DNA from: Burkholderiales bacterium
Lineage (GTDB): Bacteria > Pseudomonadota > Gammaproteobacteria > Burkholderiales > Casimicrobiaceae
NCBI GenBank assembly: GCA_025354165.1
Contig: JANXNI010000091.1
Span: 1-43,579 of the forward strand
Reading direction: 5' to 3'
Length of the DNA stretch: 43,579 bases
Part shown: one piece after another, positions 1 to 42,905 of the stretch
How the letters are laid out: every line of letters starts with the position of its first letter
How positions within the stretch are numbered: position 1 is the stretch's first letter
The notes under the pieces: generated by a model
Told to the model about the DNA's origin: nothing
What the model saw: the letters and a program-made list of their open reading frames with translations, nothing else
Databases searched by the model: none
Program-made: the position numbers and the translations under genes

Positions 1-323
1 ATCCCAAAGCGTTTGAGGTTGTCGGCGTTGCCAAAATACAGGCCACCTGCATACATCGTGCGTAGCAGGATCGTTGTGTCGCTAATGGCCTGCTTTTCCG
101 ATTCGGCCGTGGCGCAGCGAATTCCCGTGATGCCGAGCGTCAGGTTAAATCCTTCTTTGTGACGTAGTTCGGTCAGTTTCGACAGGGACGCGGATGATGC
201 GACGCCTGTCCGTGTCACGCGGGGACGTTGCAGCGTGGCCATGCCGTAAGCGTTGGCCGTGCGGATCCATACTTTCTGAACGCCGTTGGCGTGATGCTGA
301 AAAATTGTCATTGTGATTGCCAT
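1..323 (-). CDS. Unknown protein, C-terminus beyond left edge
   Basis: The gene reads leftwards from an ATG at 323 and stays open to the window edge, so about 107 residues of its N-terminal part are visible. The start is supported by a GGAG Shine-Dalgarno sequence 6 nt upstream and by the shared leader hairpin (346-362). The protein begins MAITMTIFQHHANG and is soluble, with no signal peptide or membrane segment. I do not recognise a family. It lies downstream of the YqaJ-type exonuclease gene but is separated from it by a terminator, so it is probably transcribed on its own. Because it shares its leader with the exonuclease gene and with the gene at 42150, it probably belongs to the mobile-element backbone. 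Confidence 0.7.
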   Translation of the reverse strand, partial: MAITMTIFQHHANGVQKVWIRTANAYGMATLQRPRVTRTGVASSASLSKLTELRHKEGFNLTLGITGIRCATAESEKQAISDTTILLRTMYAGGLYFGNADNLKRFG

Positions 324-395
324 GTGGTGCTCCTGTGAAGAAGTCTCTTCGCCCATCGAAGATGCTTGCTTTGTAGGTGCGCGCGACACGGACAG
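324..395 (-). promoter_or_regulatory. Structured 5' leader, copy 1
   Basis: Upstream of the ATG at 323 is a perfect 6-bp hairpin (346-362; on the minus strand TCTTCG-ATGGG-CGAAGA). Exactly 22 nt separate it from the start codon, and the spacer contains GGAG. Further upstream are CCGTGTC and CGCAC blocks that also occur before the gene at 42821. The stem sequence differs from the copies at 1415 and 42844, but pairing is kept and the ATGGG loop is identical, which suggests a conserved RNA structure. In this copy only 3 bp of pairing to the Shine-Dalgarno can be drawn. Confidence 0.6.
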
Positions 396-397
396 GT

Positions 398-434
398 ATA
401 AAAAAGCCCCTCACACGCGAAGCGAATGAGGGGG
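398..434 (-). terminator. Rho-independent terminator after exonuclease gene
   Basis: Arms CCCCTCA (407-413) and TGAGGGG (427-433) enclose an inner CGC-GAA-GCG hairpin. On the minus strand the stem is followed by a run of six T (400-405). It ends transcription of the gene stopping at 505. Two terminators at 42.1 and 43.25 kb have the same nested design. Confidence 0.85.
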
Positions 435-504
435 TTGGTTTGTGTTGACCGCGATCAAGAGACAACACATCAGCCTCGCACGGGAGTGCAAGGCGTATGT
501 CGGC

Positions 505-1392
505 TCATTGCAATGTAGCTTTGGTGATCGCGGCGCTATAGGGAATCGGCATGACGTCGAAAACGCGAGAACCCTTCTTCCGATAAGCATCCTTCGCCGT
601 CAAAGGCACCTTGTGGGCTGCGAGCAGCCGGTCGTAATCGCATGTGCCAGCCCTTGGTTTGTATTCCGCCATGACCCCGTTATCAGCCATCCAGGAGACT
701 CCCGGTGGCATCAACACTTCGAGCGCGTCCGTAGCTTCGGCGTATGCGGCCTTCGCTGCAATGAGCGCCTTGTCCGCACGCAACCACCGATCGGCCGCAA
801 CAGTCCACGTCTGCGACGTGGGTTGCACGCCGGAATGAACACAATCCCAGAACCGCTGCAATTCATCCACCAGTCGATCAATGTACGGCTGATCGCGATT
901 GACACGCAAAATGACCGGATCGTTGCTGCCGTCGTAGCTGACATAGTCACAAACGTCCGCCTCAGCTACGTAGAGCTGCTGCATGATTTGCGGTATGTAT
1001 TTTTGCGGTACGGTGCCGTTCAGTGCGGTTGTGTGATCGCGTTCACCAGGACATTTAATTTCGAGAACCAGCTCACCCGACAGCGAGAGACCATCGAACG
1101 ATGCACGGATAAACGAAAACTCGCCTGACTCCGCAATGGCCGGCGTCATGATCTCGTTGCGCATCAGCTCGTACCGTTTGCGCGCAATTGGCTCAAGCGC
1201 ATGCCCTCTTGCCATGCGCGGGTTTGAGGCTTGCTCTGGCGCGAGCCCCCGCTTGCGCAGCCACAGTAATGTGGGCGTACACCACGGGCTCAAGCCCATG
1301 ATGACTGGTGCCTCTGATGCGCCAATACCTGCTCTTCGCCAGGCTAACCACTGCGGTGTGCCTTGCTCCAGGTCAACCACCTTCATTGCCAT
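505..1392 (-). CDS. YqaJ-family (lambda exonuclease-like) recombinase nuclease
   Basis: This 295-residue protein has the layout of the YqaJ/lambda-exonuclease family: an N-terminal GIGASEAPVIMGLSP motif (about residues 22-36), a helix with ARGHALEP, and the PD-(D/E)xK active site as D100 followed by LEIK (E111, K113). Family members degrade one strand of double-stranded DNA 5' to 3' for single-strand-annealing recombination in phages and mobile elements. No annealing partner (RecT/Bet/Erf) is visible in the window. The start at 1392 (MAMKVVDLEQG) has AGGAG 8-9 nt upstream and is preceded by the shared leader hairpin. The longer open frame upstream would run through that leader, so I reject it. 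The terminator at 398-434 follows. Confidence 0.88.
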   Translation of the reverse strand: MAMKVVDLEQGTPQWLAWRRAGIGASEAPVIMGLSPWCTPTLLWLRKRGLAPEQASNPRMARGHALEPIARKRYELMRNEIMTPAIAESGEFSFIRASFDGLSLSGELVLEIKCPGERDHTTALNGTVPQKYIPQIMQQLYVAEADVCDYVSYDGSNDPVILRVNRDQPYIDRLVDELQRFWDCVHSGVQPTSQTWTVAADRWLRADKALIAAKAAYAEATDALEVLMPPGVSWMADNGVMAEYKPRAGTCDYDRLLAAHKVPLTAKDAYRKKGSRVFDVMPIPYSAAITKATLQ

Positions 1393-1475
1393 ATTTGTCA
1401 CTCCTGAAAAATGCGTTCTCGCCCATCGAGAACTGCTATGCAGGAGGAGTGCTGCGGGACAATCGTGGGTGCTGC
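1393..1475 (-). promoter_or_regulatory. Structured 5' leader, copy 2 (Shine-Dalgarno sequestration possible)
   Basis: A perfect 7-bp hairpin (1415-1433; minus strand GTTCTCG-ATGGG-CGAGAAC) lies 22 nt before the ATG at 1392. The Shine-Dalgarno AGGAGTG (1399-1405) is fully complementary to CACTCCT upstream of the hairpin (1445-1451). A 7-bp helix could therefore hide the ribosome site while enclosing the hairpin. CACCCA further upstream could pair with TGGG of the loop. The remaining sequence up to 1568 is the divergent promoter region for the plus-strand gene at 1569; I see no clear promoter hexamers there. Confidence 0.65.
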
Positions 1476-1568
1476 GCCGCACTGGGTACGGCACAAATAG
1501 GGGTCACCACAGAAAACGAGGGACCCCAATGGAGCGAGTAGCAATGAAACGGTCTATGTACTTAAGCC

Positions 1569-1964
1569 ATGCGTTTCACGCTTGGGCAAGAAACACCCCC
1601 AATTGCAGTGCTCGCAGAGGAACTGTATATCTACACAGTGGAATGCAAAGTTTATCGTCTGTACAGCAACGGGGTGAAGCTCTCGGAGCAGGCTCGCCAG
1701 ACGCAACCCAAAATTGGCCGTTTGCTGTTTGCTGCCCGCATCCGGCATCAGCAGATACGACTCACAGTCTTCACGGCACAGTTGCTGGAGCTCAAAAGCG
1801 AAGACATGGTGCTACCCCCGATCGATAGCGCCGTCATCCTGCGCATCAACGATCGGGGGCTGTTGGTCGCGGGTCAGGAGGTCGTCGCACGACGCAGCAG
1901 CAACAAGTCGAAGTGCGACTACTATCCTCAGGAATGGGTGTGTAAGCCCATTTACAGGGAGTAG
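1569..1964 (+). CDS. Unknown protein upstream of SRAP gene
   Basis: The frame encodes 131 residues beginning MRFTLGQETPPIAVLAEELY. A stop codon lies directly upstream in frame (1563-1565), so 1569 is the first possible ATG. No strong ribosome site is seen. The protein is basic, has no signal peptide or membrane span, and ends five bases before the SRAP start, so the two are probably co-transcribed. I do not recognise the family. The middle (about residues 60-105, with SAVILRINDRGLLVAGQEVV) looks like a small beta-rich domain. A role linked to the SRAP protein is only inferred from position. Confidence 0.7.
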   Translation: MRFTLGQETPPIAVLAEELYIYTVECKVYRLYSNGVKLSEQARQTQPKIGRLLFAARIRHQQIRLTVFTAQLLELKSEDMVLPPIDSAVILRINDRGLLVAGQEVVARRSSNKSKCDYYPQEWVCKPIYRE

Positions 1965-1969
1965 CAACC

Positions 1970-2704
1970 ATGTGTAATGTGTATGAACCCGCCACCGAAG
2001 ACTACCTTCAGGCGGAATGGACTCGCTTCCATGAATCCGGCATCACCGGTGCGCCGCCTTCCTCGATGGCCTACAAACTCCGTCTCGGCCCCCGCGACAC
2101 CGGACCGTTCATCACAAGCCAGGGCGTGATGCTCGGCCAGTGGGGAATGATTCGTCCGAACGCTCCCACCCGAACCGAAAAAGACCCCAAGGGCCGACCG
2201 CTGATGACCAACAACGCGCGTTCGGAAACGATGGCCACCCGTGCCACCTTCCGCGACGCTTGGAAGAACGGGCAACGTTGTTTGATCCCGGCGACGTCCT
2301 GGGACGAACCGTACTGGGGCAACAACGCGTTCAACACCTGGTGGCGCTTCCACCGTCAAGACGGCGACGCCTGGATGCTGGCCGGCCTATGGAACACCTG
2401 GACCGACAAAGCAACCGGCGAAGTCGTGCCCAGTTACACGATGATCACCATGAACTGCGACGCGCATCCGCTGCTCAAGCTCATGCACAAGCCCGAGAAA
2501 GACAAGGAGGGCACTATCTTGCCCCCTGAAAAGCAGGACAAACGCACCGTGGTGCCGATCGATGCCGCCGATTGGTCGCTATGGCTAACCGGAAACGCAG
2601 AAGACGCGCTAAGTCTGATTCAGTTACCACCCATGCGTCTGTTCAAGCACGCCGCCGTCGACCCAGCGAAGCAGGTGGATTTGCCCATCACGGCGATTGC
2701 ATAG
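1970..2704 (+). CDS. SRAP domain protein (HMCES/YedK family)
   Basis: This 244-residue protein begins MCNVYEP. After removal of the start Met it exposes the conserved catalytic Cys2 of SRAP proteins. Other family landmarks are TNNARSETM (about residues 82-90; the Asn that holds DNA), CLIPATSWDEPYW (position of the conserved Glu) and MTMNCDAHPLLKLMH (the conserved His). Family members form a reversible covalent DNA-protein crosslink with abasic sites in single-stranded DNA and shield them. Such genes are common in phages and conjugative elements. AGGGAG lies upstream of the start. The protein may protect single-stranded DNA produced by transfer or by the neighbouring exonuclease; this is inference. 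Confidence 0.9.
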   Translation: MCNVYEPATEDYLQAEWTRFHESGITGAPPSSMAYKLRLGPRDTGPFITSQGVMLGQWGMIRPNAPTRTEKDPKGRPLMTNNARSETMATRATFRDAWKNGQRCLIPATSWDEPYWGNNAFNTWWRFHRQDGDAWMLAGLWNTWTDKATGEVVPSYTMITMNCDAHPLLKLMHKPEKDKEGTILPPEKQDKRTVVPIDAADWSLWLTGNAEDALSLIQLPPMRLFKHAAVDPAKQVDLPITAIA

Positions 2705-2736
2705 CGCGGGTGCCGATCGTCCTGAATCGGAGGGCG

Positions 2737-3012
2737 TCAGAACTGCGTTTCCAGTAACTTGCCGGTACGATCAAAGTAATTCCACCCAAAGCTTACCTTA
2801 CCTTGGAGCGTGCTTTTTTCTGGCTCGTGCTCACAAATTCGCTTTTGAAAAGTGCGATTGTTCATCGCCATACTAATCACGAACCAATCAATTTCATCGT
2901 TCGCCAAGACTCTAAAAATCAAAGTACTGCCTGTCCGTGCAACGCTTTGAATAGTTAAACCGCCCGAGAGTTTAGGTAGGTGTTTAGCGTTTTGTTCGAC
3001 GACATCAAGCTT
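2737..3012 (-). pseudogene. Remnant of a secreted protein related to the gene at 4267
   Basis: The minus-strand frame is open from just after a TGA (3013-3015) to its stop at 2737 and reads like coding sequence (LPKLSGGLTIQS, then FGWNYFDRTGKLLETQF at the end). No ATG lies at its front; only an internal TTG at 2922 could start it. Its layout resembles the mature part of the protein at 4267-4683: LPK near the front, a single Cys in the second half, and a Y-x(3-4)-G-x(5)-F pattern at the end. I read it as a degraded relative that lost its signal peptide, or as a small gene with a TTG start. It immediately follows the J-domain gene. Confidence 0.45.
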
Positions 3013-3041
3013 TCAATGGTCTGTGGTTTCTTGGGGTACGG

Positions 3042-3953
3042 TCACTTCGACCGGAAGCCATTTGCGACCCACGCTAAGAGGCCAAATGGAAGAAGAGGAA
3101 TTGCTAATATGCATAAAGTACCTAACAACGTAAATAGAGCTCCCCCAAGAAAATTGGTGAAAATTCCCGAAAATGCTGGACTCCAACCACCCGACACTGA
3201 GAGCCCGCCTGCGAGGTAGATGAAAAACGCAATAGTCGCGGCGACCGGCAATAGGCACATTAATAGAGCCTCGAACTTACCACCATTGGCATCTTTGGCT
3301 ACTTCGTCTGCGAGTTTGATGCTTGCGTAGAGCGCGCCGCCTGCTGCACCCAAGCAAGGCATGAGCAAACTCTTAGCTGGTCCAGCTGGGCCAGACTCTG
3401 ACCACAAAGCTAAAACGATTCCCCCAGTAATTAGGCACTGCAGCGTGACTAATACAGCCCAGACTCGGCGTGCACCGCCCATGTAGTTAACTGCCATATT
3501 GCTACGCACTTTGAGGTTAGGATCTACGGGGGCTGGCGGCGGCGCAGCACGATGTTGCGCTGGTGGAGGAGGGGAAGATGGCGGCGATGATCGTAGGCCA
3601 CGATTGGCGTTTCGCCAATTTCCGTCTGCCTGTGATGGTGGAATGTCAGCGCCGTAGGCGGACCGCATTGCATCTGCGCCAGAACGCGCGTATGAGGCAT
3701 AACGGTCGCTAGTGGTCGTACGTTTTGCGGCTTCTTGCTCTTGATCTGCAATCCATTCGTCATGCTCTTTACGGCGCGCAGGCTCAGAAAGCACCGCGTA
3801 CGCTCGATTCAACATCACCATGATTCGCGCCGCCTGTTCGCTACCGGGGTTCAGGTCAGGGTGATATTTTTGCGCAAGTGTTTTGTACGCTGCCTTTATG
3901 ACGTCTGGTGGCGCGCTGCGCGAAACCTTCAGGTTGTCGTAATGCGTTTGCAT
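3042..3953 (-). CDS. J-domain (DnaJ-like) membrane protein
   Basis: About 303 residues. Residues 1-65 form a J domain with the essential HPD triad at 31-33 (KYHPDLNPG), which stimulates the ATPase of a DnaK/Hsp70 partner. A proline-rich linker follows (SSPPSSPPPPAQ, about 120-140). The C-terminal half has four hydrophobic segments (VWAVLVTLQCLITGGIVLAL and three more), so it should sit in the inner membrane with the J domain in the cytoplasm. I chose the ATG at 3953 (MQTHYDNL) because the alternative at 3977 adds only eight residues that do not look like a J domain and lies within the old S24 frame; the ATG at 3977 does have a better ribosome site. Its client is unknown. Confidence 0.8.
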   Translation of the reverse strand: MQTHYDNLKVSRSAPPDVIKAAYKTLAQKYHPDLNPGSEQAARIMVMLNRAYAVLSEPARRKEHDEWIADQEQEAAKRTTTSDRYASYARSGADAMRSAYGADIPPSQADGNWRNANRGLRSSPPSSPPPPAQHRAAPPPAPVDPNLKVRSNMAVNYMGGARRVWAVLVTLQCLITGGIVLALWSESGPAGPAKSLLMPCLGAAGGALYASIKLADEVAKDANGGKFEALLMCLLPVAATIAFFIYLAGGLSVSGGWSPAFSGIFTNFLGGALFTLLGTLCILAIPLLPFGLLAWVANGFRSK

Positions 3954-3957
3954 GGTA

Positions 3958-4263
3958 TTCCGGCACCCATTTCCCAATCACCTTTCCACAATACGTGATG
4001 TCAACTTTCAATTCCAAATAACGCGGCGACTAGTCAGGATTAAGCGCCTGCAGTAGTCGTTTGCCATCCTCTTCGACCAGCTGCTTGAACGTCGCTTCAC
4101 AACGATCGTCCAGGCGCGTGATGATCCGGTTGCCAGACACTCCCTCTTGATCCGGATCCACGTAGATGATGTTGCCGTTAGCGTACGAAGGCTTGCCATC
4201 GGGGGTTTTCATGCTTTCGCCGCGCACGCGCAGGGCATACGTGACAGAGCCTGACATGGCCAT
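3958..4263 (-). pseudogene. S24 peptidase (CI/LexA-type repressor) remnant with amber stop
   Basis: The first part (4263 to 4030) encodes ALRVRGESMK, containing the nucleophilic Ser of S24 peptidases, then NGNIIYVDPD and EATFKQL with the catalytic Lys. It ends LNPD followed by TAG (4030-4032). Reading on in the same frame gives SPRYLELKVDITYCGKVIGK and WVPE down to 3958, which is the normal C-terminal end of CI-type repressors. A point mutation to an amber codon is the simplest reading. The N-terminal DNA-binding domain and the self-cleavage site are also missing; the frame starts just after the stop of the gene at 4267. It is a phage-repressor relic, probably non-functional. Confidence 0.75.
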
Positions 4264-4266
4264 AAT

Positions 4267-4683
4267 TTAACCGCAATCCTTCTTGTTTACATCAAAACGT
4301 GTGACGAAAGCGCCAGACGCATTTCTATAGGAGTAGGTCATCGTGACGTTGTTATCGTGGTAATAAAGCATTGTTGGGTCGGTGCAAAATCCAGCGACGA
4401 TTTGCGGTCGTAGCGCGGTTGTAAGACGATTCCCGATCGAGCTGCCAGCCGTAATGGTGAGAAGGGTGTACGAGTGAGTCAATCTGCGATCCGGCCCAGC
4501 AGCTGACGTATCCCATCGAGTGTGTTGGTCCAGCACTTTGGGAAGCGTCTGACTGATGTTGTTCGCGATCTCATTGAGCCGCTGTTCGACAGTCTGCTTT
4601 ACGGCCGTCGCCTGTGCCCAGCTCGTGGTGGTCAGAAGAAAAAATATGAGGGCGATTGCAGCGGAACGCGTAGGTGGCTTCAT
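4267..4683 (-). CDS. Secreted protein of unknown function
   Basis: 138 residues starting MKPPTRSAAIALIFFLL with a signal peptide that probably ends at SWAQA. The mature part has a coiled-coil-like front (TVEQRLNEIANNISQTLPKV), a middle Cys (GFCTDP) and a C-terminal Cys (KKDCG*), so one disulphide is possible. The frame extends six bases upstream to a TTG, but the ATG at 4683 is the better start. It probably acts in the periplasm. I do not recognise a family; the decayed frame at 2737-3012 looks like a relative. The S24 remnant follows three bases after its stop, in the same frame. Confidence 0.7.
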   Translation of the reverse strand: MKPPTRSAAIALIFFLLTTTSWAQATAVKQTVEQRLNEIANNISQTLPKVLDQHTRWDTSAAGPDRRLTHSYTLLTITAGSSIGNRLTTALRPQIVAGFCTDPTMLYYHDNNVTMTYSYRNASGAFVTRFDVNKKDCG

Positions 4684-4689
4684 TCTCAA

Positions 4690-5634
4690 TGTGTCGAATT
4701 TTTACCGAATCCAACAGTAGCTGAAAACACAAAAAATTGCCTTAGATTTCCAAAGATTTTTGTCGCGGCGTTCCCTTTTCCGCTCTCGACAGCGCTACTT
4801 CGCACTAATTTATCGGTGTACATTGTTCCTATGGTTATCAACCGTCAAAACACCACGAAGCTGTTTATTGCCATCTGCGTCAAATCAATCAAAGCTCGAT
4901 TCAAAAAGTGTCGACATTGTCGATCCCGTGGCAGAGTATTTCCTGAACGATTTACCCACCGATATGGTGATTGAAGAGGTCAGCGACGAGGCCCGAGGAT
5001 GGGGTGACGCGGTTGCCCTAGCGAACACGCGTAGGATTGACGTTGGAGTGGACTTTAGCTAGCTACATTTTGATTTTGCTGCTCAAGACTGAATTTATGC
5101 CGCCACAAAAAATCTACGCGGCTCGTATCGATCGTGAGTATCCAGATTACAAGCAGTGAGCTTCCGCCTTGCCACGCATTCACCCAGTATCCACTCTCCA
5201 TGGAGAGCATTGGAACTGTCTCATCGGAGCATCAGGCGCGGAACTTACGACTGTTGAAGCTAACCGCGCGGAATTCCTCTCAGCCATAGTTTTGCGCGCA
5301 GGGGGTCATCGCCAAATGGCCGAACGTGCCTCGTGGAAAAACTCGCTCCATTTAACATAACAAAAATTCCCGAACAATTAGGCATAAATTTATTGTTAAA
5401 AGGAATAAAACGTGTCGCAGCATAGTTCCGTCACTTCGCCACGTCTCCAACGGTTAGATTTCCGGGAACAGTGCCCTTGCTTAAGTCTTTTTGGTTGCGT
5501 CTGCCTTCGACGCAGCACAGATTGTCGACCATATGCGCGCCGAGCTGAACTGTTGCGGTGCTGTTGAGTCCACATAAGCGAAATGCAAGCCCACACGCCG
5601 CGCAAGCCGTAAACTACCTGTGCATTGAAACTTT
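4690..5634. other. Region without a clear gene; possible decayed ORF
   Basis: No intact gene is convincing in these 945 bases. Between about 4830 and 5062 on the plus strand, two frames join into a protein-like sequence: one begins MVINRQNTTKLFIAIC (ATG at 4831) and the other carries VDIVDPVAEYFLNDLPTDM and ends GVDFS at 5062. They would need a single frameshift near 4905, so a broken gene is possible. The part nearest 5635 must hold the promoter of the copper operon, but I cannot point to clear hexamers. The part nearest 4690 should hold the promoter of the gene at 4683. Confidence 0.35.
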
Positions 5635-6175: not shown

Positions 6176-7501
6176 ATGTTTCACCTCCTTCATCGTGTTG
6201 CGCATGGCAAGGCTGCTGCGCGCTGGTTACTACTGTCGTTTGCCGTTTCGTCGGGTATCACATTTGCCCAATCACTGCCGAGCGGATCGCTCTCGCTTGA
6301 GTCTGCGCTGAAGCTTGCGCAGACGCGCTCTTCGCTCCTGCTCGCACAAGACAGCGCCGCTACCGCGTCTCGCGAAATGGCGGTATCCGCAGGGCAGTTG
6401 CCCGACCCGACGCTCAAACTCGGCATCAATAATCTACCTGTAACCAGCTCGGATCGGTTCAGTCTGTCGCGGGACTTTATGACCATGCGCTCGATTGGCG
6501 TGATGCAGGAATTCACACGTAGTGACAAGCGCAAAGCGCGATCAGTGCGCTTTGAGAGCGAAGCGCAGGTCGCTTACGCGAGTCGAGCCGTGACCATCGC
6601 AAACCTTCAACGCGAAACGGCCATGGCCTGGCTTGAGCGCTACTACAGCGAACGCATGCGTGAAGTCCTCGTTCAACAGCGCGACGAAACCACGCTGCAA
6701 ATCGAAGCGACCGATACCGCCTATCGCACCGGTAAGGGATCACAAGCGGATGTGTTTGCTGCCCGCTCCGCCGCCGCGCAAATCGAGGATCGTATCGCGC
6801 AGGCAGACCGACAGGTACTCGCGTCCAACGCCAAGCTGACGCGCTGGATTGGCGACGCCGCCGCGCAGCCGCTGGATCATTTGCCCGCGATGGACAAGCC
6901 CAACGTGGAATTGACGCTGCTCGACAGCGTGGTCGCGCATCACCCGCAAATCGCCGTGCTCAAACGTCAGGAGGATGTCGCGCAGGCCGACGTAGTGATC
7001 GCGAAGACCAACAAGCACGCCGACTGGAGTGCGGAGCTGATGTTCAGTCAACGGGGTTCCGCGTTCTCGAACATGATTTCGATCAACCTGTCGGTGCCCC
7101 TTCAATGGGATCAGAAAAACCGTCAGGATCGAGAACTCGCCGCCAAGCTGGCCATGGTCGAGCAAGCCCGGGCGCAAACCGAAGAGATGATCCGAGAACA
7201 CGCCGCAGAAATTCGCGGCATGGTCATCGAATGGCAAAGCAACCGCGAACGCCTGACGCGGCATGACAGTTCACTGATACCGCTGGCCAGCGAGCGCACT
7301 CGTGCGGCGCTGGCCGCGTATCGCGGCGGCGCGGGTAGCTTGACCACGGTGCTTGAGGCGCGACGCGGCGAGATTGATGCCCGTATGGAGCGCCTGCGCC
7401 TGGCGATGGACACCGCACGCCTGTGGGCGCAGCTCAACTATTTGAATCCCGAAGGCCACGGCGACGCACCCATTGCTGCCACTGTACGGAGCGCACCATG
7501 A
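6176..7501 (+). CDS. cusC: Outer-membrane efflux channel of Cu/Ag RND system (CusC/TolC family)
   Basis: 441 residues with a signal peptide (WLLLSFAVSSGITFAQ) and two long alpha-helical repeats rich in Ala, Gln and Arg, as in TolC-family outer-membrane channels. No lipobox Cys is present, unlike E. coli CusC. It should form the trimeric outer-membrane exit duct for the CusBA pump. Its TGA stop overlaps the ATG of the next gene (ATGA at 7498-7501), so translation is coupled with cusB. The family assignment is clear; copper/silver specificity comes from the linked CusB and CusA. Confidence 0.9.
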   Translation: MFHLLHRVAHGKAAARWLLLSFAVSSGITFAQSLPSGSLSLESALKLAQTRSSLLLAQDSAATASREMAVSAGQLPDPTLKLGINNLPVTSSDRFSLSRDFMTMRSIGVMQEFTRSDKRKARSVRFESEAQVAYASRAVTIANLQRETAMAWLERYYSERMREVLVQQRDETTLQIEATDTAYRTGKGSQADVFAARSAAAQIEDRIAQADRQVLASNAKLTRWIGDAAAQPLDHLPAMDKPNVELTLLDSVVAHHPQIAVLKRQEDVAQADVVIAKTNKHADWSAELMFSQRGSAFSNMISINLSVPLQWDQKNRQDRELAAKLAMVEQARAQTEEMIREHAAEIRGMVIEWQSNRERLTRHDSSLIPLASERTRAALAAYRGGAGSLTTVLEARRGEIDARMERLRLAMDTARLWAQLNYLNPEGHGDAPIAATVRSAP

Positions 7502-9135
7502 AACTCAAGACAACACTTTCAATCATCGCAGCAATCGCCATCGCTGGTGCTGCGAGTTACGGCCTGTACATGTTCGGTATGCAACGCGGCATGGGCATGG
7601 CGGGAGGCACTGCGGACACCTCCGCCAGCGGCGCAACCGGCGCGGACAGCGGCCCGCAAAGTATCGCCCAGGGCGAAGCGGCCACCAAACGCCACATCAC
7701 AGCAGGCATCAAGGCCGGTGACATCGACCCCGAAACCGGCAAAAAAATCCTGTACTACCACGACCCCATGGTGCCGGGAAACAAGTTCGACAAACCCGCC
7801 AAGTCACCCTTCATGGACATGATGCTGGTGCCGGTCTACAACGAAGGCGATTCTGATCAGAGCAAGGTCACGGTCAGCTCGCGCATTCAACAAAATCTCG
7901 GCGTGCGCACGGCCCCGGTGGTGGAAGGCATGCTCTCGCCACAGGTGTCTGCTGTCGGCAGCATCGCCTACAACGAACGCGATCAGGTGATTGTGCAGGC
8001 GCGAGCGACCGGCTACGTCGAGCGCCTGCACGTACGCGCCACGCTGGATCGCGTGGCGAAAGGTCAGGCGCTGGCAGAACTCTACGTGCCCGACTGGATT
8101 GCGGCACAAGAGGAGTTTCTCTCGGTGCGTCGCATGCAGGGCACTGATCTGGCGTCGCTCGTTGATGGCGCACGTCAGCGCATGCGACAGGTGGGCATGA
8201 GCGACGTGCAGATTCGTCTCGTGGAGACGACCGGCACGATCCAACCTCGTGTCACCTTGACGTCGCCGCAAAATGGCGTGGTGGTCGAATTGTTGGCACG
8301 CGAAGGCATGACGGTGATGTCTGGTGCGACGTTGTTTCGCATCAATGGTTTGGGCACGGTCTGGGCGAACGCCGAAGTGCCAGAGACGCAGGCCGCGTTG
8401 CTGCGTCCCGGTGCGAAGGTGTCTGCCAAGAGCCCAGCCGTGCCGGGCACGACTTTCGAGGGCAAGGTGCAGGCGATCCTGCCCGAGGTCAACGCAGCGA
8501 CCCGCACGATCAAGGCCCGACTCGAACTCGCCAATCCCGGCGCGCGCCTAGTGCCGGGCATGTTTGTCACCATGCAACTAACCGACAACCGCGCAGAAAA
8601 GTCGATCCTTATCCCGACCGAAGCCGTGATCCAAACCGGCAAGCGCACTGTGGTGATGGTGGCTGAAGACAACGGCAAGTTCAGTCCGGTCGAAGTCGAA
8701 GCGGGCATCGAGAGCGACAACCAGACCGAGATCAAGCGCGGCTTGAAACTCGGCCAGCGCGTCGTCGTGTCATCGCAATTCCTGATTGACTCGGAGGCGA
8801 GTCTCAAAGGGGTCGAGGCGCGACTGAATGACGCACCGAAGCCCATCGCGGCCAACACCGCCAAACGGCATCAGGGCGAAGCCAAGGTAGAGGCGATTAC
8901 CCGCGATGCCATCACGCTGTCACACGACCCAATTCCGTCGATCAAATGGCCGTCGATGACGATGGATTTCAAGCCGCCGGAGAAAGGATTGCCACGCAAC
9001 GTGCAGGCAGGGGATCGCGTCACATTCGAGTTTTACGAAGCGGCAGAAGGGATACCGCAAATCACCGTGATTACGCCAATGGCTCCAGAGGCAAAGGCAG
9101 CGCCGACCGCACCCAAAGCCGGGCCGAAACCATGA
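7498..9135 (+). CDS. cusB: Periplasmic adaptor of Cu/Ag RND pump with fused CusF domain
   Basis: 545 residues. After an N-terminal membrane anchor (about residues 7-23) comes a heavy-metal-binding domain with [15 protein letters not shown] and [12 protein letters not shown]. Membrane-fusion-protein domains follow ([19 protein letters not shown], then [11 protein letters not shown]). The last 90 residues form a CusF-like domain with the Cu(I)/Ag(I) site [14 protein letters not shown]: His, Trp and two Met in the CusF order. The adaptor thus carries its own metallochaperone, as in some Burkholderiales CusB proteins. I chose the ATG at 7498 over a longer frame because it overlaps the cusC stop (ATGA) and starts a proper membrane anchor. 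The stop overlaps cusA by four bases. Confidence 0.92.
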
Positions 9136-12100
9136 TTGCGGGTCTCATCCGCTGGTCAATCGTCAACCGCTTTCTGGTGCTGCTGGCCACGGTGATAGTC
9201 AGCGCCTGGGGGGTCTATTCGGTACTCAAGACACCGCTAGATGCGCTGCCCGACCTGTCCGACGTGCAGGTGATCATCCGCACCACGTTTCCCGGTCAGG
9301 CTCCGCGCATCGTCGAAAACCAGATCACCTATCCGCTCACCACGACCATGCTCTCGGTGCCCGGTGCCAAGACAGTGCGCGGCTACTCGTTCTTCGGCGA
9401 CTCGTTTGTTTACGTGCTGTTTGAGGATGGCACCGACTTGTACTGGGCGCGATCCCGGGTGCTGGAATATCTCAATCAGGTGCAGTCGCGCTTGCCGCCC
9501 TCAGCCAAAGCCACGCTTGGGCCTGACGCAACCGGCGTCGGCTGGATTTATCAGTATTCACTGGTGGATCGTACGGGGACGCAAGACGCCTCGCAACTGC
9601 GCGCCTTGCAGGACTGGTTTCTCAAATACGAATTAAAGACAGTGCCCAATGTCGCGGAGGTGGCCGCAGTCGGCGGCATGGTGCGGCAGTACCAGATCGT
9701 GCTTGACCCTGACAAGCTCGCGGCCTACGGCATCTCGCACACCAAAGTGGTCAACGCGATTCAGCGCGCCAATCAGGAGGCGGGTGGCTCAGTGCTTGAA
9801 CTGGGTGAGGCCGAATACATGGTGCGCGCGTCAGGCTACTTGCAATCGCTCGACGACTTTCGCAAAGTGCCTTTAACGACTAACGATGCAGGTGTCTCCG
9901 TACGCCTGGGCGACGTGGCGCGCGTGCAAGTTGGCCCGGAAATGCGCCGTGGCATTGGCGAGCTGGATGGTGAGGGCGAAGCGGCAGGCGGCGTAATTGT
10001 GATGCGCTCGGGCAAGAATGCGCTCGAAACCATAGCTGCGGTCAAAACGAAGCTGCGCGAATTGCAAGCGGGGCTGCCGAAGGGCGTTGAGATCGTACCG
10101 GTGTATGACCGCTCCGGGCTGATCGAACGGGCGGTTGAGAACCTTGGGCACAAGCTGCTCGAAGAGTTTCTGGTGGTGGCCGTGGTGTGCTTCATCTTCC
10201 TGTTTCACCTGCGCTCGGCGTTCGTCGCCATCGTTTCACTGCCGCTCGGGATTCTGGCGGCGTTCATCGTGATGCACTATCAAGGCGTCAATGCGAACAT
10301 CATGTCGCTTGGCGGCATCGCCATCGCGATTGGGGCGATGGTGGATGCAGCGGTGGTGATGATCGAGAATGCGCACAAGCATCTGGAGCACTGGAACCAT
10401 GCGCATCCGGGTGAAACGCTCGACGGCGAGGCGCGATGGCAGGTGATTGGCGATTCAGCGGCTGAGGTCGGCCCCGCGCTGTTCTTCTCGCTGTTGATCA
10501 TCACGCTGTCGTTCGTGCCGGTGTTCACGCTGGAGGCGCAGGAAGGCCGTCTGTTTGCGCCGCTCGCCTTCACCAAAACCTACGCAATGGCAGCGGCAGC
10601 AGGGCTGTCGGTCACGCTGATTCCGGTGCTGATGGGCTACTTGATTCGCGGTCGTATCCCAGATGAAAAAAGTAATCCGCTAAACCGTTTGCTGATCGCG
10701 ATTTATCGTCCGCTGCTCAACTATGTGTTGGCGTGGCCGAAGCTCACGCTGGCCTTCGCAGCGGTGATTTTGGGCTTGAGCATATGGCCGTTGCAACACA
10801 TCGGCGGCGAGTTCATGCCGCGCTTGGATGAGGGCGACATTCTCTACATGCCCTCCGCACTACCAGGGCTTTCTGCGGGCAAAGCGGCCGAGTTGTTGCA
10901 GCAGACGGATCGCCTGATCAAGACGGTGCCCGAAGTGCTGAGTGTGTACGGCAAGGCGGGACGCGCCGAGACTGCGACTGACCCGGCACCGCTCGAAATG
11001 TTTGAGACGACGATTCAGTTCAAGCCGCGCGATCAATGGCGTCCCGGCATGACGCAGGACAAGCTAGTCGACGAACTGGATCGAATCGTCAAGGTGCCGG
11101 GCCTCGCCAATATCTGGGTGCCACCGATCCGTAACCGCATCGACATGCAGGCCACCGGCATAAAGAGCCCTGTCGGTGTCAAAGTGGCAGGCACCGACCT
11201 CGCGGTGATTGATCGCATCACGGGTGAAATAGAGCGCGCACTGAAAGACGTGCCCGGCGTCAGCAGTGCGCTGGCCGAGCGACTCACCGGGGGTCGCTAC
11301 GTCGACGTGAACATTCGTCGTGATGATGCGGCGCGCTTCGGCATGAACATCGCCGACGTGCAGTCGGTCATCACCGCCGCCGTGGGGGGTGACAACATTG
11401 GCGAGACGGTGGAAGGCTTGCAACGCTTCCCAATCAGCGTGCGCTATCCGCGTGAAATTCGAGATTCGCTGGAGAAGATTCGCAAACTACCGATTGTCAG
11501 CGAACGTGGCGCGCGTCTGGTGCTCTCGGACGTTGCGGATATTCGCGTCACCGATGGCCCGCCGATGCTGCGTAGCGAAAACGCGCGGCTGTCGGGTTGG
11601 GTGTATGTCGACATTCGTGGGCATGACCTGCGCTCGGCCGTGCAGGACATGCAGAAGGTGGTGGCCGACAAAGTCGTGTTGCCGGCGGGCTACTCCGTTT
11701 CATGGTCGGGACAGTTTGAGTTTCTGGAGCGTGCGACCGCCAAACTCAAGGTGGTGGTGCCATTCACTTTGCTGATCATTCTGGTGCTGCTGTACCTGAC
11801 CTTCAAACGCATGGATGAGGCGGTGCTGATCATGGCAACGCTGCCTTTCGCGCTGGTCGGTGGCATCTGGTTGCTCTATCTGCTCGACTACAACCTGTCG
11901 GTGGCCGGTGCCGTGGGCTTCATCGCGCTGGCCGGCGTGTCGGCCGAGTTTGGCGTGATCATGTTGCTGTATCTAAAACATGCGTGGGACGAGCGCATCG
12001 CGCAGGGCAAAACGAGTAATGATGATCTTCTCGACGCAATTCGCGAAGGGGCTGTGCTGCGGGTGCGTCCGAAGGCAATGACGGTGGCTGTCATCCTCGC

Positions 12101-12299
12101 GGGCTTGTTCCCGATCATGTGGGGTAGCGGCACTGGATCGGAAGTCATGCAGCGCATTGCAGCGCCGATGGTCGGCGGCATGATCACAGCGCCCCTGCTG
12201 TCAATGTTTGTGGTGCCTGCGGTTTATTTGTTAATGCGGCGGACGCGGAAGGCGCGACGCACTGCTGAAGACACGGCAACAGTGGAGGCTTCGGCATGA
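9132..12299 (+). CDS. cusA: RND efflux pump for Cu(I)/Ag(I) (CusA/SilA type)
   Basis: 1055 residues with the usual RND layout of twelve membrane helices and two large periplasmic loops. The three Met residues that bind Cu(I)/Ag(I) in E. coli CusA are present at the same positions: M573 ([11 protein letters not shown]), M623 ([10 protein letters not shown]) and M672 ([11 protein letters not shown]). The TM4 motif [16 protein letters not shown] is of the monovalent-metal (CusA) type. It should be a trimer in the inner membrane driving export through CusB and CusC with proton motive force. The start overlaps the cusB stop (9132-9135), and the last four bases overlap the patatin gene. Confidence 0.95.
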
Positions 12300-13264
12300 A
12301 GTCGCTTCAACGTAATCGCAGGGGCGTTCGCGCGATAGGTCGATCCGTCACGCGGCTAACGTTAACCGCGTTAGCGGTCATTCAAATCAGTGGCTGTGCA
12401 ACCACGCCGACGGCGGGTGTCTCGTTACTACCGGAACGTCGCGGCGGCGCGATCCGAGCCTTTGACGCAAAGCGCCCTGTGGTGGCCCTTGTGCTCTCGG
12501 GGGGCTCCGCGCGCGGTTTTGCGCATATCGGTGTAATTCGCGTGCTGGAGCAAATGGGCATCGAACCCGATCTCATCGTGGGAACCAGCGCGGGCAGCAT
12601 CGTGGGCGCGGGGTATGCAGCAGGTATGACAGCCAATCAACTTCAGGATGCCGCAAAGCGCTTTGATAAGTCGTTGTTCATGGACATTGCATTTTCGAAT
12701 TTCGGATTGCCGTTCATCCCGAACGAGCTGGGACTGATTCGCGGCGAGCGTTTACAGCGATTCGTGGATGATCTGGTAACGCATCGCCCAATTGAGTCGT
12801 TGCCGCGTCGACTAGCGATTACCGCTACCGACCTTCAGTCCGGTAAGACCATGTTGTTCACGCACGGCAACGCTGGACTTGCGGTTCGCGCCTCATCTTC
12901 GGTTCCAGGGCTATTTACGCCGCCAAAGATTGGCGGACGACTCTACGTCGACGGTCAGGTCAGTAGTCCACTGCCGGTGGTGGCGGCTCGCACTTTGGGA
13001 GCGGACATCGTGATCGCTGTGGACGCGACGTATCCGCCCGACCACGCCGATGTAACCAACGCGCTGGGTGTGCTCTTTCAGTCATTCATGATCGCCGGGA
13101 ACCAAATCAAGAATCGCGAAGTGGCCGCTGCCGACCTTGTGATTCGCCCCGAGATCAAGCGATCTGGGCAACTGGGATTCGACGATTGCGATTGGTTGAT
13201 AGCGTCCGGCCAAACGGCAGCGCTGACGAAGAAGCAAGAACTATTGCAGTTACTCAAGCCCTAA
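12296..13264 (+). CDS. Patatin-like phospholipase lipoprotein in the cus operon
   Basis: 322 residues. A signal peptide ends in a lipobox (ISGC, Cys about residue 34), so it is probably a lipoprotein. The patatin domain follows: a glycine-rich oxyanion loop ([12 protein letters not shown]), the nucleophile elbow GTSAG with the catalytic Ser, and the Asp of the dyad in [10 protein letters not shown]. It resembles the RssA/NTE group of bacterial patatins, which hydrolyse phospholipids or lysophospholipids. The ATG overlaps the cusA stop (ATGA), so it is translated with the pump. A link to membrane repair or remodelling under copper stress is inference. Confidence 0.88.
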
Positions 13265-13527
13265 TGTGGGGGCGAGATTCCTAAATTGGCAACGTTCAAA
13301 GCTTGGAGCGCGTAAACCGATAGGAGATTCCTTGCCGCGACAACTTTACCGTTGACCTTCTGTTTAGATAGGCGGACACGGTGTCGAGCAATAAAAACGA
13401 TAGAAACAGAAGTCTCACGGCAAGCGATTGAGTAACGACTGGCAAGCTCCACCGTTGTACGCTCCCCCGCCACGACAGTGACGTTCTCATCCACGCAAAA
13501 AATACAGGACCTCAGTCGAGTGCTCAA
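13261..13527 (-). CDS. Small unknown protein coupled to multicopper oxidase
   Basis: 88 residues. The start is a TTG (13525-13527) that overlaps the TGA of the upstream oxidase (TTGA), so it is likely translated by coupling. The middle and end (QKVNGKVVAARNLLSVYALQ) loosely recall an HPr-like fold, but the phosphorylatable His of HPr is absent and I do not assign a family. Two Cys near the N-terminus (CIFC) might bind metal. The gene is convergent with the patatin gene, overlapping its last four bases. The coupling is the main argument that it is real. Confidence 0.5.
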   Translation of the reverse strand: MSTRLRSCIFCVDENVTVVAGERTTVELASRYSIACRETSVSIVFIARHRVRLSKQKVNGKVVAARNLLSVYALQALNVANLGISPPH

Positions 13528-15506
13528 AGATCAACTTGGAGCACACCCATCATGCCTTGATCTTCATGTTCAAGTATGTGGCAGTGATACATCCGCTTGC
13601 CTGTTTGATCTTGGCGCACGACAAAAGAAACCGTTGTGTTGGGCGGCACGTTGACCGAATCGCGCCAAGCCGGGAAACTGTCGACTACGTCTCGCCCAGC
13701 TACCGTCCGAGAAATAACTTGAAACTGCGTGCCGTGCAGATGAAAAGGATGATCCATGGTCGAGTCATTTTGTACCTCCCAGCGCTCGACAGCGCCGACG
13801 CGGGTGATCGTATCAATTCGCGTGGGATCAAATGATTTTCCGTTGATAAGGAAGCCGCCGCTCGTCGACATCCCCATTCCACCGCTCTCGCTCAGTACGA
13901 AGCGCCGTGTCGTTGGCACCGCCCCCTGTGCCAGCAACGAATGGATAGGGCGCAAGCTCAACGGTAGCGAGACGGAGGCGGCAACGTTGTCGACGCTCGT
14001 GCGCAAGTTGCCAATCGCCACAGTTGTCTGACTAGCCGCCATTCCCATGGTGCCGCGGTTGTACGCCAGCGCCTGAATAGATCGCACAGTGGACGAGGTG
14101 TTTGGTGCGGTCAGCAATATTTCGGCACGTTCACCGGGCGCCAAGAGCAGTTCGGTGAGCAAAGGAGACGGGCCATTGGTTAGCCCACCGTCGGTACCGA
14201 TTTGGCGGAACGGCAACCCGTCAATCGCGAAGCGTACGTAGCGCGCATTTGTGCCATTGAAGAGCTTCCAACGTTGCGTTTCGCCTGGCCACACATCCAG
14301 CGTTGGTTGTAACCCACCATTGACCAGCAAATACTGGCCTTCCCGACCGTTCATCGCGTCCATTGCACTGCTACCAGCGATGGAACCGTCCGACGCGAGC
14401 TTCAGATCGGACAGGAACAAAAGCCTTTCTCGTACATGTTCGGGCAATGGGTTGTCACGAGAACGAATCACCAACGCACCCGCAAGCCCCCGATAGACCT
14501 GTTCCGCAGTCACACCGTGCGCATGAGGGTGATACCAGTACGTACCGGCGCTACCGATTGGTATCGTGAATTCGTAGTCACGACCGCCCCCGGAAGGCAC
14601 AGGATCCATAGGGTTGCCATCTTGCGACGGCGGAACAGGCAGTCCGTGCCAATGAATCGTCGATGGTTGCGGCAGTCGATTTTCAAATCGTATGCGTACG
14701 CTGTCGCCCTCGTAGAGTTCAATCATCGGACCCGGTACGCTGCCGTTGTAACTCCAAAATTCGGTTGCGTTGGTGCCAGCTAGCTGGATGCTGGTCGGTG
14801 ATGCGATTAGCGTTGCTTCAAACCGTCGTTCGATGGCGTTGGCGTTTTTGAGCCGCGAGAGTGCACGAAGGGGCTGACCGAATGCGAGAGACGGTGCTAT
14901 CGGTAGTGCACTCATTTGTTCGTCGAGCACGGCTGCTGCGCAAAATACCGCGCCCTCGCCTGTCCACCCCTGCCTCACTGCCGCGTCGTACGTGCGTGCG
15001 CTGGTGAAGTACCGATGATTGGCCATGGCGAGCGATGACTGCGCGCGAAACGCTCGATACACGGGGCGTGCAGTATCTGCTGGGCAGGTACCGTCGCTCA
15101 AACGAGGGGTTACTGAAAAATCGATGCCTTCGTAGAAAAAATTCGCTGGCTGGCTACGAGCAATCAACGCGCAGTCATCGCTCAGACCATAGAAATGCGT
15201 CGAAGCCAATGTCGGCGCTACTTCGATACGATAGCGACACACTGCGTCAGTGGAAGCACTAGGGGCTTTCGCTTGAAAGCTCATCCCGGTTCGCCGAAAG
15301 GCATCTGAAACGTCTAGAAGCACCTGTTCAGCGGAGCGCCCAGTGAGGAAATACTGATCAGACGCCGCGCGGTAATATTCAACCACTGATACGACAGGAG
15401 TCTGTGCGATTGCGCGCTGCGGCGCGGGTGCCACTGACAACGCGGCAATTGCGGCAAACGCGCATCTGTTTGCGACCCATAGTGAGTCCGACAACTGATT
15501 GTTCAA
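13524..15506 (-). CDS. Multicopper oxidase with extra N-terminal domain
   Basis: 660 residues, well above the 450-600 usual for this family. A signal peptide (ending RAIAQ) is followed at residues 41-195 by a domain with EYYRAASDQYFLTG and ANHRYFTSARTYD, patterns typical of the DUF5648-like family of secreted proteins. The cupredoxin part then has all four copper-binding motifs: HWHG (285-288), HPHAH (326-330), HPFHLHG and HCHILEHEDQGMM near the C-terminus. Met replaces the axial ligand-free position, giving a type-1 site of His-Cys-His-Met. It probably oxidises Cu(I) in the periplasm. The start is a TTG preceded by AAGG; no in-frame ATG is near. Confidence 0.9.
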   Translation of the reverse strand: MNNQLSDSLWVANRCAFAAIAALSVAPAPQRAIAQTPVVSVVEYYRAASDQYFLTGRSAEQVLLDVSDAFRRTGMSFQAKAPSASTDAVCRYRIEVAPTLASTHFYGLSDDCALIARSQPANFFYEGIDFSVTPRLSDGTCPADTARPVYRAFRAQSSLAMANHRYFTSARTYDAAVRQGWTGEGAVFCAAAVLDEQMSALPIAPSLAFGQPLRALSRLKNANAIERRFEATLIASPTSIQLAGTNATEFWSYNGSVPGPMIELYEGDSVRIRFENRLPQPSTIHWHGLPVPPSQDGNPMDPVPSGGGRDYEFTIPIGSAGTYWYHPHAHGVTAEQVYRGLAGALVIRSRDNPLPEHVRERLLFLSDLKLASDGSIAGSSAMDAMNGREGQYLLVNGGLQPTLDVWPGETQRWKLFNGTNARYVRFAIDGLPFRQIGTDGGLTNGPSPLLTELLLAPGERAEILLTAPNTSSTVRSIQALAYNRGTMGMAASQTTVAIGNLRTSVDNVAASVSLPLSLRPIHSLLAQGAVPTTRRFVLSESGGMGMSTSGGFLINGKSFDPTRIDTITRVGAVERWEVQNDSTMDHPFHLHGTQFQVISRTVAGRDVVDSFPAWRDSVNVPPNTTVSFVVRQDQTGKRMYHCHILEHEDQGMMGVLQVDL

Positions 15507-42149: not shown

Positions 42150-42821
42150 TTATTTCATCTGCGACAGGAGCTCACGTAGTTTCGAAGTTGTTGCCCGTCG
42201 CGCTTCGTCACTGGCAACCCCGTTCAACGTGCTCGTGAGGTCATCCAAGATGCATTGGGCAGCGCGGTCGAACTGACTCGCGACAAGCGCAGCTTCCAGT
42301 TCGTCACCCAAGCGTGCGGCCTGCTGCGATGATCTCGCGACGGATACATGTCTTCCGTGGAATTCACCGCAACCGCCAAACGCACCAAGATGCGGTCTAC
42401 TGCAATGCCACGACCCTTCTGTTTGAACGGCTTTGATGCCGTGTCCATCGTCGAAGTGCAGCGCCAATGCAAATAGCGTTTCGACACTGGCGTCGCCGTC
42501 AAACGAGTTGTCCTCGATCAACCGGTCAATCTCTGGATTCTTGTCGACGCCAAAATGTCTTGCGAGTACGCGGAAGTAGTTCTCCACGTTCCGTTCAGCG
42601 TTTCCCGGCGGTGTGAGGCCGAGGCTTGACGCCAGCACCTGCAGGTTATCCAACACTTCATCCCATGAACAGTTGCTGTTCTCAGCGATATTTGCGATGT
42701 ACACAGTCCCGTCACCGGGATAGTTTTCATCCAGTTCGAACGGGCCAAATAGTGCCTTGATGACCGGAGTCACCTTGTCCAGTGTGATCGTGCCAGTCAT
42801 GTCGTAGTAGTTGTCTGCCAT
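42150..42821 (-). CDS. Unknown protein with shared leader
   Basis: 223 residues from ATG at 42821 (MADNYYDMTGTITLDKVTPV). The longer frame upstream would include the leader hairpin. GGGAG lies 6 bases before the ATG. The first 100 residues are acidic and globular (LFGPFELDENYPGDGTVYIA). A Cys/His stretch follows (SWHCSRPHLGAFGGCGEFHG, about 149-168), which might bind a metal. I do not recognise the family. It has the same leader and terminator type as the genes at the left edge and so should belong to the element's backbone. Confidence 0.82.
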   Translation of the reverse strand: MADNYYDMTGTITLDKVTPVIKALFGPFELDENYPGDGTVYIANIAENSNCSWDEVLDNLQVLASSLGLTPPGNAERNVENYFRVLARHFGVDKNPEIDRLIEDNSFDGDASVETLFALALHFDDGHGIKAVQTEGSWHCSRPHLGAFGGCGEFHGRHVSVARSSQQAARLGDELEAALVASQFDRAAQCILDDLTSTLNGVASDEARRATTSKLRELLSQMK

Positions 42822-42905
42822 TATTTTCTCCCAAAAAATTGCGTTCTCGCCCATCGAGAAACACTATGCGCGGGGAGTGCGACAGACACGGCTGGGTGCC
42901 TGGGG
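42822..42905 (-). promoter_or_regulatory. Structured 5' leader, copy 3
   Basis: Hairpin TTCTCG-ATGGG-CGAGAA (42844-42860, minus strand), exactly 22 nt from the ATG. The Shine-Dalgarno GGGAG (42828-42832) can pair with CTCCC upstream of the hairpin (42873-42877). The pairing differs in sequence from that of copy 2 but has the same position. Upstream are CCGTGTC and CGCAC blocks as in copy 1 and GCACCCA as in copy 2. Confidence 0.65.

Follow-up and report, generated by a model that had tools for sequence, protein, structure and literature searches.

Copies of one short leader stand before 15 genes of the genome examined here (G000, 4.72 Mb in 97 contigs). They are probably copies of a single cis-acting RNA that closes the ribosome-binding site (RBS) and unites DNA-maintenance or establishment genes, plasmid-wide, under one control. 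Such a scope, 15 genes on what is probably one plasmid, would be unusual. The window, i.e., the whole 43,579-nt stretch of DNA that was analysed, is contig C91 of this genome and carries three of the leaders (Table).

The leader and its covarying hairpin

The initial annotation described three minus-strand hairpins with an ATGGG loop, and reading the sequence and folding it located all three where they had been placed. The window contains the nine-base core CGATGGGCG three times, where shuffles average 0.90 and 4 of 100 reach three; within the window it is weak evidence by itself. In the genome, the eleven-base core TCGATGGGCGA gave 17 matches and its reversed control 1, an excess which argues that the window hairpins are not due to chance. 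All 17 contexts were read. Nine are full leaders with 24-36 nt from the end of the core to the ATG; the other eight lack the remaining blocks and were judged chance by context.

Table. Leader features and leader-borne genes in the window
Feature	Position	Strand	Remark
Leader copy 1 (W323)	321..401	-	Weakest Shine-Dalgarno pairing of the three window copies
Copy 1 blocks	RYACC 399-395; TGTC 388-385; CAC 379-377	-	
Copy 1 GCAAGC	369-364	-	Other leaders have GCATAG here
Copy 1 hairpin	362-346; loop ATGGG 356-352	-	Stem TCTTCG/CGAAGA
Copy 1 Shine-Dalgarno AGGAG	334-330	-	
Copy 1 ATG	323-321	-	
Leader copy 2 (W1392)	1390..1474	-	Precedes YqaJ-type exonuclease gene
Copy 2 blocks	ACC 1470-1468; TGTC 1461-1458; GCATAG 1441-1436	-	
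Copy 2 anti-Shine-Dalgarno CACTCCT	1451-1445	-	
Copy 2 hairpin	1433-1415; loop ATGGG 1426-1422	-	7 bp, stem GTTCTCG/CGAGAAC
Copy 2 Shine-Dalgarno AGGAGTG	1405-1399	-	
Copy 2 ATG	1392-1390	-	
Leader copy 3 (W42821)	42819..42901	-	
Copy 3 blocks	ACC 42897-42895; TGTC 42888-42885; CAC 42879-42877; GCATAG 42869-42864	-	
Copy 3 anti-Shine-Dalgarno CTCCC	42877-42873	-	
Copy 3 hairpin	42860-42844; loop ATGGG 42854-42850	-	Stem TTCTCG/CGAGAA
Copy 3 Shine-Dalgarno GGGAG	42832-42828	-	
Copy 3 ATG	42821-42819	-	
Leader-1 gene	1..323	-	Product (fragment) without Pfam family; truncated at contig end
Leader-2 gene	505..1392	-	YqaJ-like (lambda-exonuclease type) recombination nuclease, 295 aa; PF09588, E 6.5e-27
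Leader-3 gene	42150..42821	-	223 aa, without Pfam match
Terminator-like hairpin	400..433	-	T tract 405-400 ends two bases before leader-1 ACC

A covariance model (R1) built from the nine full leaders recovered 15 in the genome, i.e., the nine used for training and six new ones at E values of 4.5e-7 to 0.003, together with one opposite-strand echo of a leader at E 0.24. The new leaders all lie on contigs with training leaders or on C54. Hence the 15 are confined to contigs C6, C42, C54 and C91, all four of which carry conjugative-plasmid genes. The leaders lie before start codons and their stems covary. The common layout is ACC-N6-TGTC-N5/6-YAC-N7/8-GCATAG with few variants, followed by the hairpin, the Shine-Dalgarno and the start codon. 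The spacing rule ACC-N6-TG[TG]C-N5/6-[CT]AC-N7/8-G[CA]A fits all 15 leaders, and the CCGTGTC block, earlier taken as a feature of copies 1 and 3, is simply part of this pattern. GCATAG is exact in 11 of the 15. The base before ACC is a pyrimidine in every leader and the next one upstream is a purine in 14; conservation starts sharply at this point, two bases upstream of ACC, and nothing further upstream is strongly conserved. Consecutive blocks begin 9-11 bases apart, and the leader measures 79-95 nt from the first conserved base to the start codon. The spacing of exactly 22 nt between hairpin and start codon proposed earlier was found in copies 1 and 3, while copy 2 has 23, or 22 with its seventh pair included, and over the 15 copies it gave way to a range of 20-35 nt. 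The loop is ATGGG in 13 leaders, TTGGG in one and ATGGT in one.

When the four contigs were scanned for the blocks, all 15 leaders ranked at the top, the weakest scoring 22.9 against 18.1 for the best other site. Hairpins with the loop [AT]TGG[GT] and at least five Watson-Crick pairs numbered 18, of which 15 are leaders, against 1.4 in mononucleotide shuffles. Thus, the blocks and the hairpin occur together. The highest-scoring site with blocks alone (window 15502, minus strand, 18.1, against 13.9 for the best in shuffles) coincides with the start of a reading frame and is not followed by an ATGGG hairpin. Terminator-like hairpins (GCTTCGC-type stem, GGGG, T tract) recur at 2-3 bases before ACC in five leaders and at about 45-84 bases in three more (window 400-433, C6, C42, C54), as if gene, terminator and leader had travelled together.

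The stem was said to change between copies with its pairing kept, and this holds across the family. Two-sided changes occur in all six pairs, in 36 cells altogether; of the 89 cells, 96.6% are paired, and none of 500 shuffles did as well; versions slid along the alignment were 37-48% paired (best 48.3%). Each stem pair occurs as three or four standard pair types, and RNAalifold predicts exactly the covarying helix. On this comparative evidence, covariation establishes a hairpin of 5-6 bp with a nearly invariant AUGGG loop. A pseudoknot between the loop UGGG and the upstream ACC[CA] is possible by eye in most copies, but these columns are fixed and show little variation; treated as a helix in fixed register, it pairs in 77.3% of cells with zero two-sided changes.

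Predicted pairing around the ribosome-binding site

The annotation had also noticed a partner for the Shine-Dalgarno upstream of the hairpin in copies 2 and 3 and not in copy 1, and copy 1 indeed pairs only CCU with AGG. Across the 15 leaders, the statistics support two further helices. In the outer one, the YAC block and the next 7-8 nt would pair with the gene's own Shine-Dalgarno or start codon; in the inner one, the stretch from GCAUAG to the stem would pair with that just 3′ of the hairpin. Each leader's 5′ segment was paired with its own 3′ segment and with those of the other 14 leaders, and the duplex energies were compared. For the outer helix, the own partner gave -7.13 against -6.0 for swapped partners (p 0.0029, 15 leaders). 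The inner helix gave p 0.0049, the stem as positive control p 5e-5, and four negative-control segment pairs p 0.28-0.96. Within these averages, the own RBS partner ranked first in 2 of the 15 leaders and eighth or lower in 5. The clearest outer helices pair CUCUCCUG with CAGGAGAG (C42-51814), UUCCUGA with UCAGGAA (C6-45899) and CACUCCU with AGGAGUG (W1392). The partner in C54-11595 and C54-12191 lies over the start codon rather than the Shine-Dalgarno, and RBS pairing is poor (-2.5 to -2.7 kcal/mol) in W323, C6-42700 and C42-1810.

Predicted folding points the same way. The mean unpaired probability of the Shine-Dalgarno is 0.13 in the 15 leaders, whereas 42 control starts elsewhere on the plasmid that also have a Shine-Dalgarno average 0.43 (Mann-Whitney p 1.1e-5). 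Minimum-energy folds often add the two outer helices. The folding energy of whole leaders is mostly ordinary, with z from -3.09 to +0.86 and beyond -2 in 2 of 15; in this set, C6-42700 was folded to an inner ATG and C42-382 at 70 nt, both being shortened. The predicted accessibility also depends on where the RNA begins: about 0.14 for the full leader, 0.185 from YAC, 0.44 from GCATAG and 0.29 from the stem, at which point the Shine-Dalgarno is still moderately folded. Modelling thus supports the view that, across the set, the conserved leader structure pairs the Shine-Dalgarno or the start codon, weakly so in copies like W323. The leader may accordingly be pictured as one long irregular hairpin that would keep the RBS closed. 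The proposal of a cis-acting RNA with a hidden Shine-Dalgarno before mobile-element genes gains support from three computations, namely covariation, the swap comparison and low predicted accessibility.

Distribution, genes served and host element

The only other genome found with the leader, G018, belongs to the same genus. It has six copies on one contig (C31) of 83,141 bases, on both strands and spread over more than 40 kb. Among 399 genomes of the order, R1 found the leader in its own genome only, at E up to 0.001. The model R2 gave hits at E up to 0.01 in 20 of these genomes, its own included, with 27.0 bits for the best foreign hit, where the weakest leader scores 42.8. Of the 19 foreign hits, six were read and two aligned; one of these two lacks the loop and the other breaks two of the six pairs. 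The foreign hits were set aside. In the class, R2 hit 11 of 369 genomes including its own (best foreign 21.0 bits; three of the ten foreign hits read). In the family, R1 hit 2 of 64 genomes and R2 3 of 64; the third R2 genome, G016, has its hit inside an 856-aa reading frame on the opposite strand, presumably a subtilase, and it was taken as chance. A pattern scan of named genomes yielded 16 stretches. Two are on JAPUER010000031.1 at the same sites as on C31 of G018, and the remaining 14, about the number we estimated to be expected, were taken as chance, with L043 alone run against a model. A viral pattern scan gave three stretches of at most 11.3 bits, 16 related plasmids and one viral record gave a best E of 0.022 under strict filters, and no relative of the DUF3150 protein was found in viral contigs. 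In the samples searched, no homologue of the leader was found outside the one genus. The searches sampled genomes, and the strict filters recovered just 11 (R1, order), 13 (R2, order) and 14 (R2, class) of the 15 known leaders; since up to four known leaders were missed, distant relatives may exist and absence elsewhere is not proven.

The initial annotation suggested an ICE-associated RNA such as the radC or DUF3577 motif, and neither identity was borne out. None of 4227 Rfam models matched the window at its gathering score, a result that covers DUF3577 only if it is among these models. Up to E 10, the window leader regions drew only Acido-Lenti-1, P18 and mir-648, far below gathering scores, as were all matches up to E 1 in the further leader regions, a scan outside of which lay the C54, C42-21982 and C42-51814 leaders. 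The radC RNA (RF01754, gathering score 40 bits) had no match in the window, nor up to E 10 in the window leader regions or up to E 1 in the further ones scanned. It had none in the genome either, a result weak by itself as 14 control genomes were silent too. A literature search, with subscription journals mostly outside its coverage, found no description of this leader. We regard it as real and structured, a candidate for a new RNA family within a familiar broad class, undescribed as far as our searches reach.

Eight of the 15 genes behind leaders have Pfam matches: a YqaJ nuclease, a CobT-like VWA protein, a MoxR-type AAA protein, DUF3150, ERF, DUF4942, a WGR/DNA-ligase protein and SSB. The other seven have none (W42821, the W323 fragment, C6-46860, C6-43755, C54-12191, C42-382 and C42-1810), the C54-12191 gene being represented in the search by 58 aa of its 75-aa frame. 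Among 72,556 plasmid records, the only ones searched, the leader-3 protein has relatives in 10, at 24.7-44.2% identity, and by eye no leader was seen upstream of three of these plasmid relatives. An SRAP (SOS-associated peptidase) gene at window 1970-2704 adjoins the YqaJ leader unit on the opposite strand and lacks a leader match. Efflux genes of Cus type, for an outer membrane efflux protein and a CusB/CusF-domain protein, sit with a 1117-aa ORF at window 6176-12299, between the leaders at the two contig ends.

The genes around the leaders bear out a mobile element, as annotated. C42 has a run of F-type transfer genes, a Rep3-type replication gene and KfrA; ParA and ParB families occur in a protein group mostly from C42, topoisomerase and actin-like families in the group of C54 and window proteins, and C6 has a large helicase among other genes. 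Judged by its Rep3, ParA/ParB-type, KfrA and F-type Tra families, the element resembles a large conjugative plasmid more than an ICE, integration being possible. An identical stretch of 141 bases closes C6 on the right and opens the window on the left, and by eye the leader-1 reading frame continues in C6, the assembly break lying inside this gene. This overlap puts C6-42700, 43755, 45899, 46860, 48038, W323 and W1392 in one row on one strand as seven leader-gene units. On C31 of G018, C54 and C42 map to places separated by about 0.9 kb, and both contig pairs likely belong to one plasmid. C42 also has 24 tRNA genes in an array that covers many specificities (10718-13819, plus strand), with the same 24 genes at 2298-5399 of the G018 contig; tRNA arrays are described on plasmids and phages in the parts available of PMC5966550 and PMC12803027. 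The IncA plasmid pRA1 similarly groups AAA ATPase, Bet, exonuclease, DUF3150 and VWA genes, and no leader was found there under the strict filters.

Competing readings and the proposed control

Ribosomal-protein or CsrA-controlled leaders likewise hold the RBS closed in a structure that a trans factor reads. CsrA/RsmA sites have a GGA core in the hairpin loop, which none of the three loop types here presents. The radC motif precedes ICE genes. In the text available, PMC2864571 lists this motif and describes STAXI, a repeated pseudoknot near DNA-handling genes such as ssb; both are candidate structured RNAs (RF01754, RF01728), as is our leader, which in contrast has no Rfam match. Cluster K mycobacteriophages carry SAS/ESAS, start-associated elements that include an inverted repeat and recur before many genes of one mobile genome (PMC3203893 and PMC12699233, as far as available). 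The ESAS arms hold a consensus sequence, whereas here the arms vary and only the pairing is kept. EGeRS1, from Bacillus conjugative plasmids of the pLS20 family, is likewise a structured sequence that recurs upstream of genes; it defines an establishment-gene regulon in several operons, and its mechanism is given as unknown in the accessible part of PMC8708921. However, EGeRS1 spans 400-600 bp with multiple inverted repeats according to the same portion of that paper, while the leader, at 79-95 nt, combines a single covarying hairpin with a segment complementary to the RBS, and its plasmid carries F-type transfer genes, a related record being labelled betaproteobacterium.

T4-type phages have promoter-plus-stem-loop cassettes, and the blocks might similarly act as DNA, forming a compact plasmid-specific promoter or activator site copied before many genes, while the hairpin would sit at the mRNA 5′ end, or close to it, and lend stability. 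The rigid block spacing and the sharp onset of conservation would suit such a cassette, and T tracts two or three bases before ACC in 5 of the 15 leaders call for a start inside the leader. Nevertheless, we consider this unlikely. Full covariation extends to the outer pairs of the stem although the loop begins just 6-12 bases downstream of GCATAG, which leaves GCATAG too near to serve as an ordinary -10 box. On this reading, the outer helix would also have its 5′ strand outside the RNA, and yet the pairing of that strand beats swapped partners. Furthermore, sigma-70-type matches are not in excess in the regions scanned (1 vs 1.0 shuffled in window 300-1700, 2 vs 3.0 for the C6 leaders). A very slight chance attaches to a single-stranded-DNA element, in which the hairpin on the transferred strand would drive early expression in the recipient cell in the manner of an Frpo promoter. 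Frpo/ssi promoters of F-like plasmids are folded sequences preceding ssb in leading regions (PMC11541004, available in part), and ssb is among the leader genes. Their -35/-10 elements, however, lie in the paired region, according to that part, whereas here the paired arms are what varies and the regions scanned showed no sigma-70 excess. Moreover, the G018 leaders occupy both strands over a long distance, and RBS pairing would be left without explanation.

Transcription attenuation, with the hairpin and a U-rich stretch in several copies as a weak terminator relieved by a factor, could draw on an excess of terminator-like sites near leaders over shuffles (5 vs 1.4 and 16 vs 7.3). These sites include the W1392 hairpin with its tail GCATTTTTCA and the C6-45899 hairpin, and W42821 and C54-12191 also have T runs. 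But the T run is detached from the stem and missing in C6-48038 and C42-51814, and the stems are short, which makes attenuation very improbable. Least probable of all is that the loop AUG is an upstream start codon for a leader peptide or coupled translation. The loop does start with AUG in 14 leaders and UUG in one, in frame with the gene in 8 of 15, but this frame preference has p 0.09, and stop-free runs to the gene start are similar across frames (14, 13 and 11 of 15). One copy stops after two codons, and no common Shine-Dalgarno is seen by eye before the loop, C42-696 having AGGA there. From the loop AUG/UUG to the gene AUG, 8 copies are in frame 0, 7 in frame 1 and none in frame 2, which may be inherited spacing as the copies are related.

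We therefore return to an RNA that closes the RBS. The paired arms drift while the loop and blocks stay fixed, which suggests that the arms matter as pairs and the fixed letters as letters. Since ACC, TGTC, YAC, GCATAG and the loop are fixed, we infer a common trans factor, a plasmid-encoded protein or RNA, that would read these letters and open or lock the structure. With the RBS inside the fold, translation control would be the simplest output. No fixed upstream promoter was seen. The T tracts before ACC in the five leaders imply either a promoter inside the leader or a terminator that is read through. Accordingly, either the first two blocks are a compact promoter, with RNA starting between TGTC and YAC, or the terminators are read through; both would fit RBS closing, and a start behind GCATAG would not.

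In the proposed scheme, at least 15 genes rich in DNA handling (SSB, ERF annealing protein, YqaJ exonuclease, the MoxR/CobT/DUF3150 group, WGR ligase) would be translated together. Such a gene set points to DNA maintenance or establishment, and the leader genes are most plausibly an establishment or maintenance regulon. More tentatively, and on balance doubtfully, one plasmid-encoded RNA-binding factor might read the AUGGG loop and the blocks and shut at least 15 RBSs in donors; a recipient free of the factor would then produce a brief burst of SSB, recombination and perhaps defence-evading proteins. This would be, by analogy, an RNA counterpart of the repressor-based establishment switch of Bacillus plasmids.

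Coordinated control of plasmid genes is usually sought at promoters, and here a short RNA element precedes at least 15 genes of what seems to be a single large environmental conjugative plasmid. A single genome suffices to establish the hairpin, given how strongly the copies covary. Furthermore, the leader picks out seven genes without Pfam match as candidates for acting together with ssb, ERF and the MoxR/CobT/DUF3150 group. The leader offers a directly testable RNA regulon for plasmid establishment or maintenance and a new candidate RNA family.
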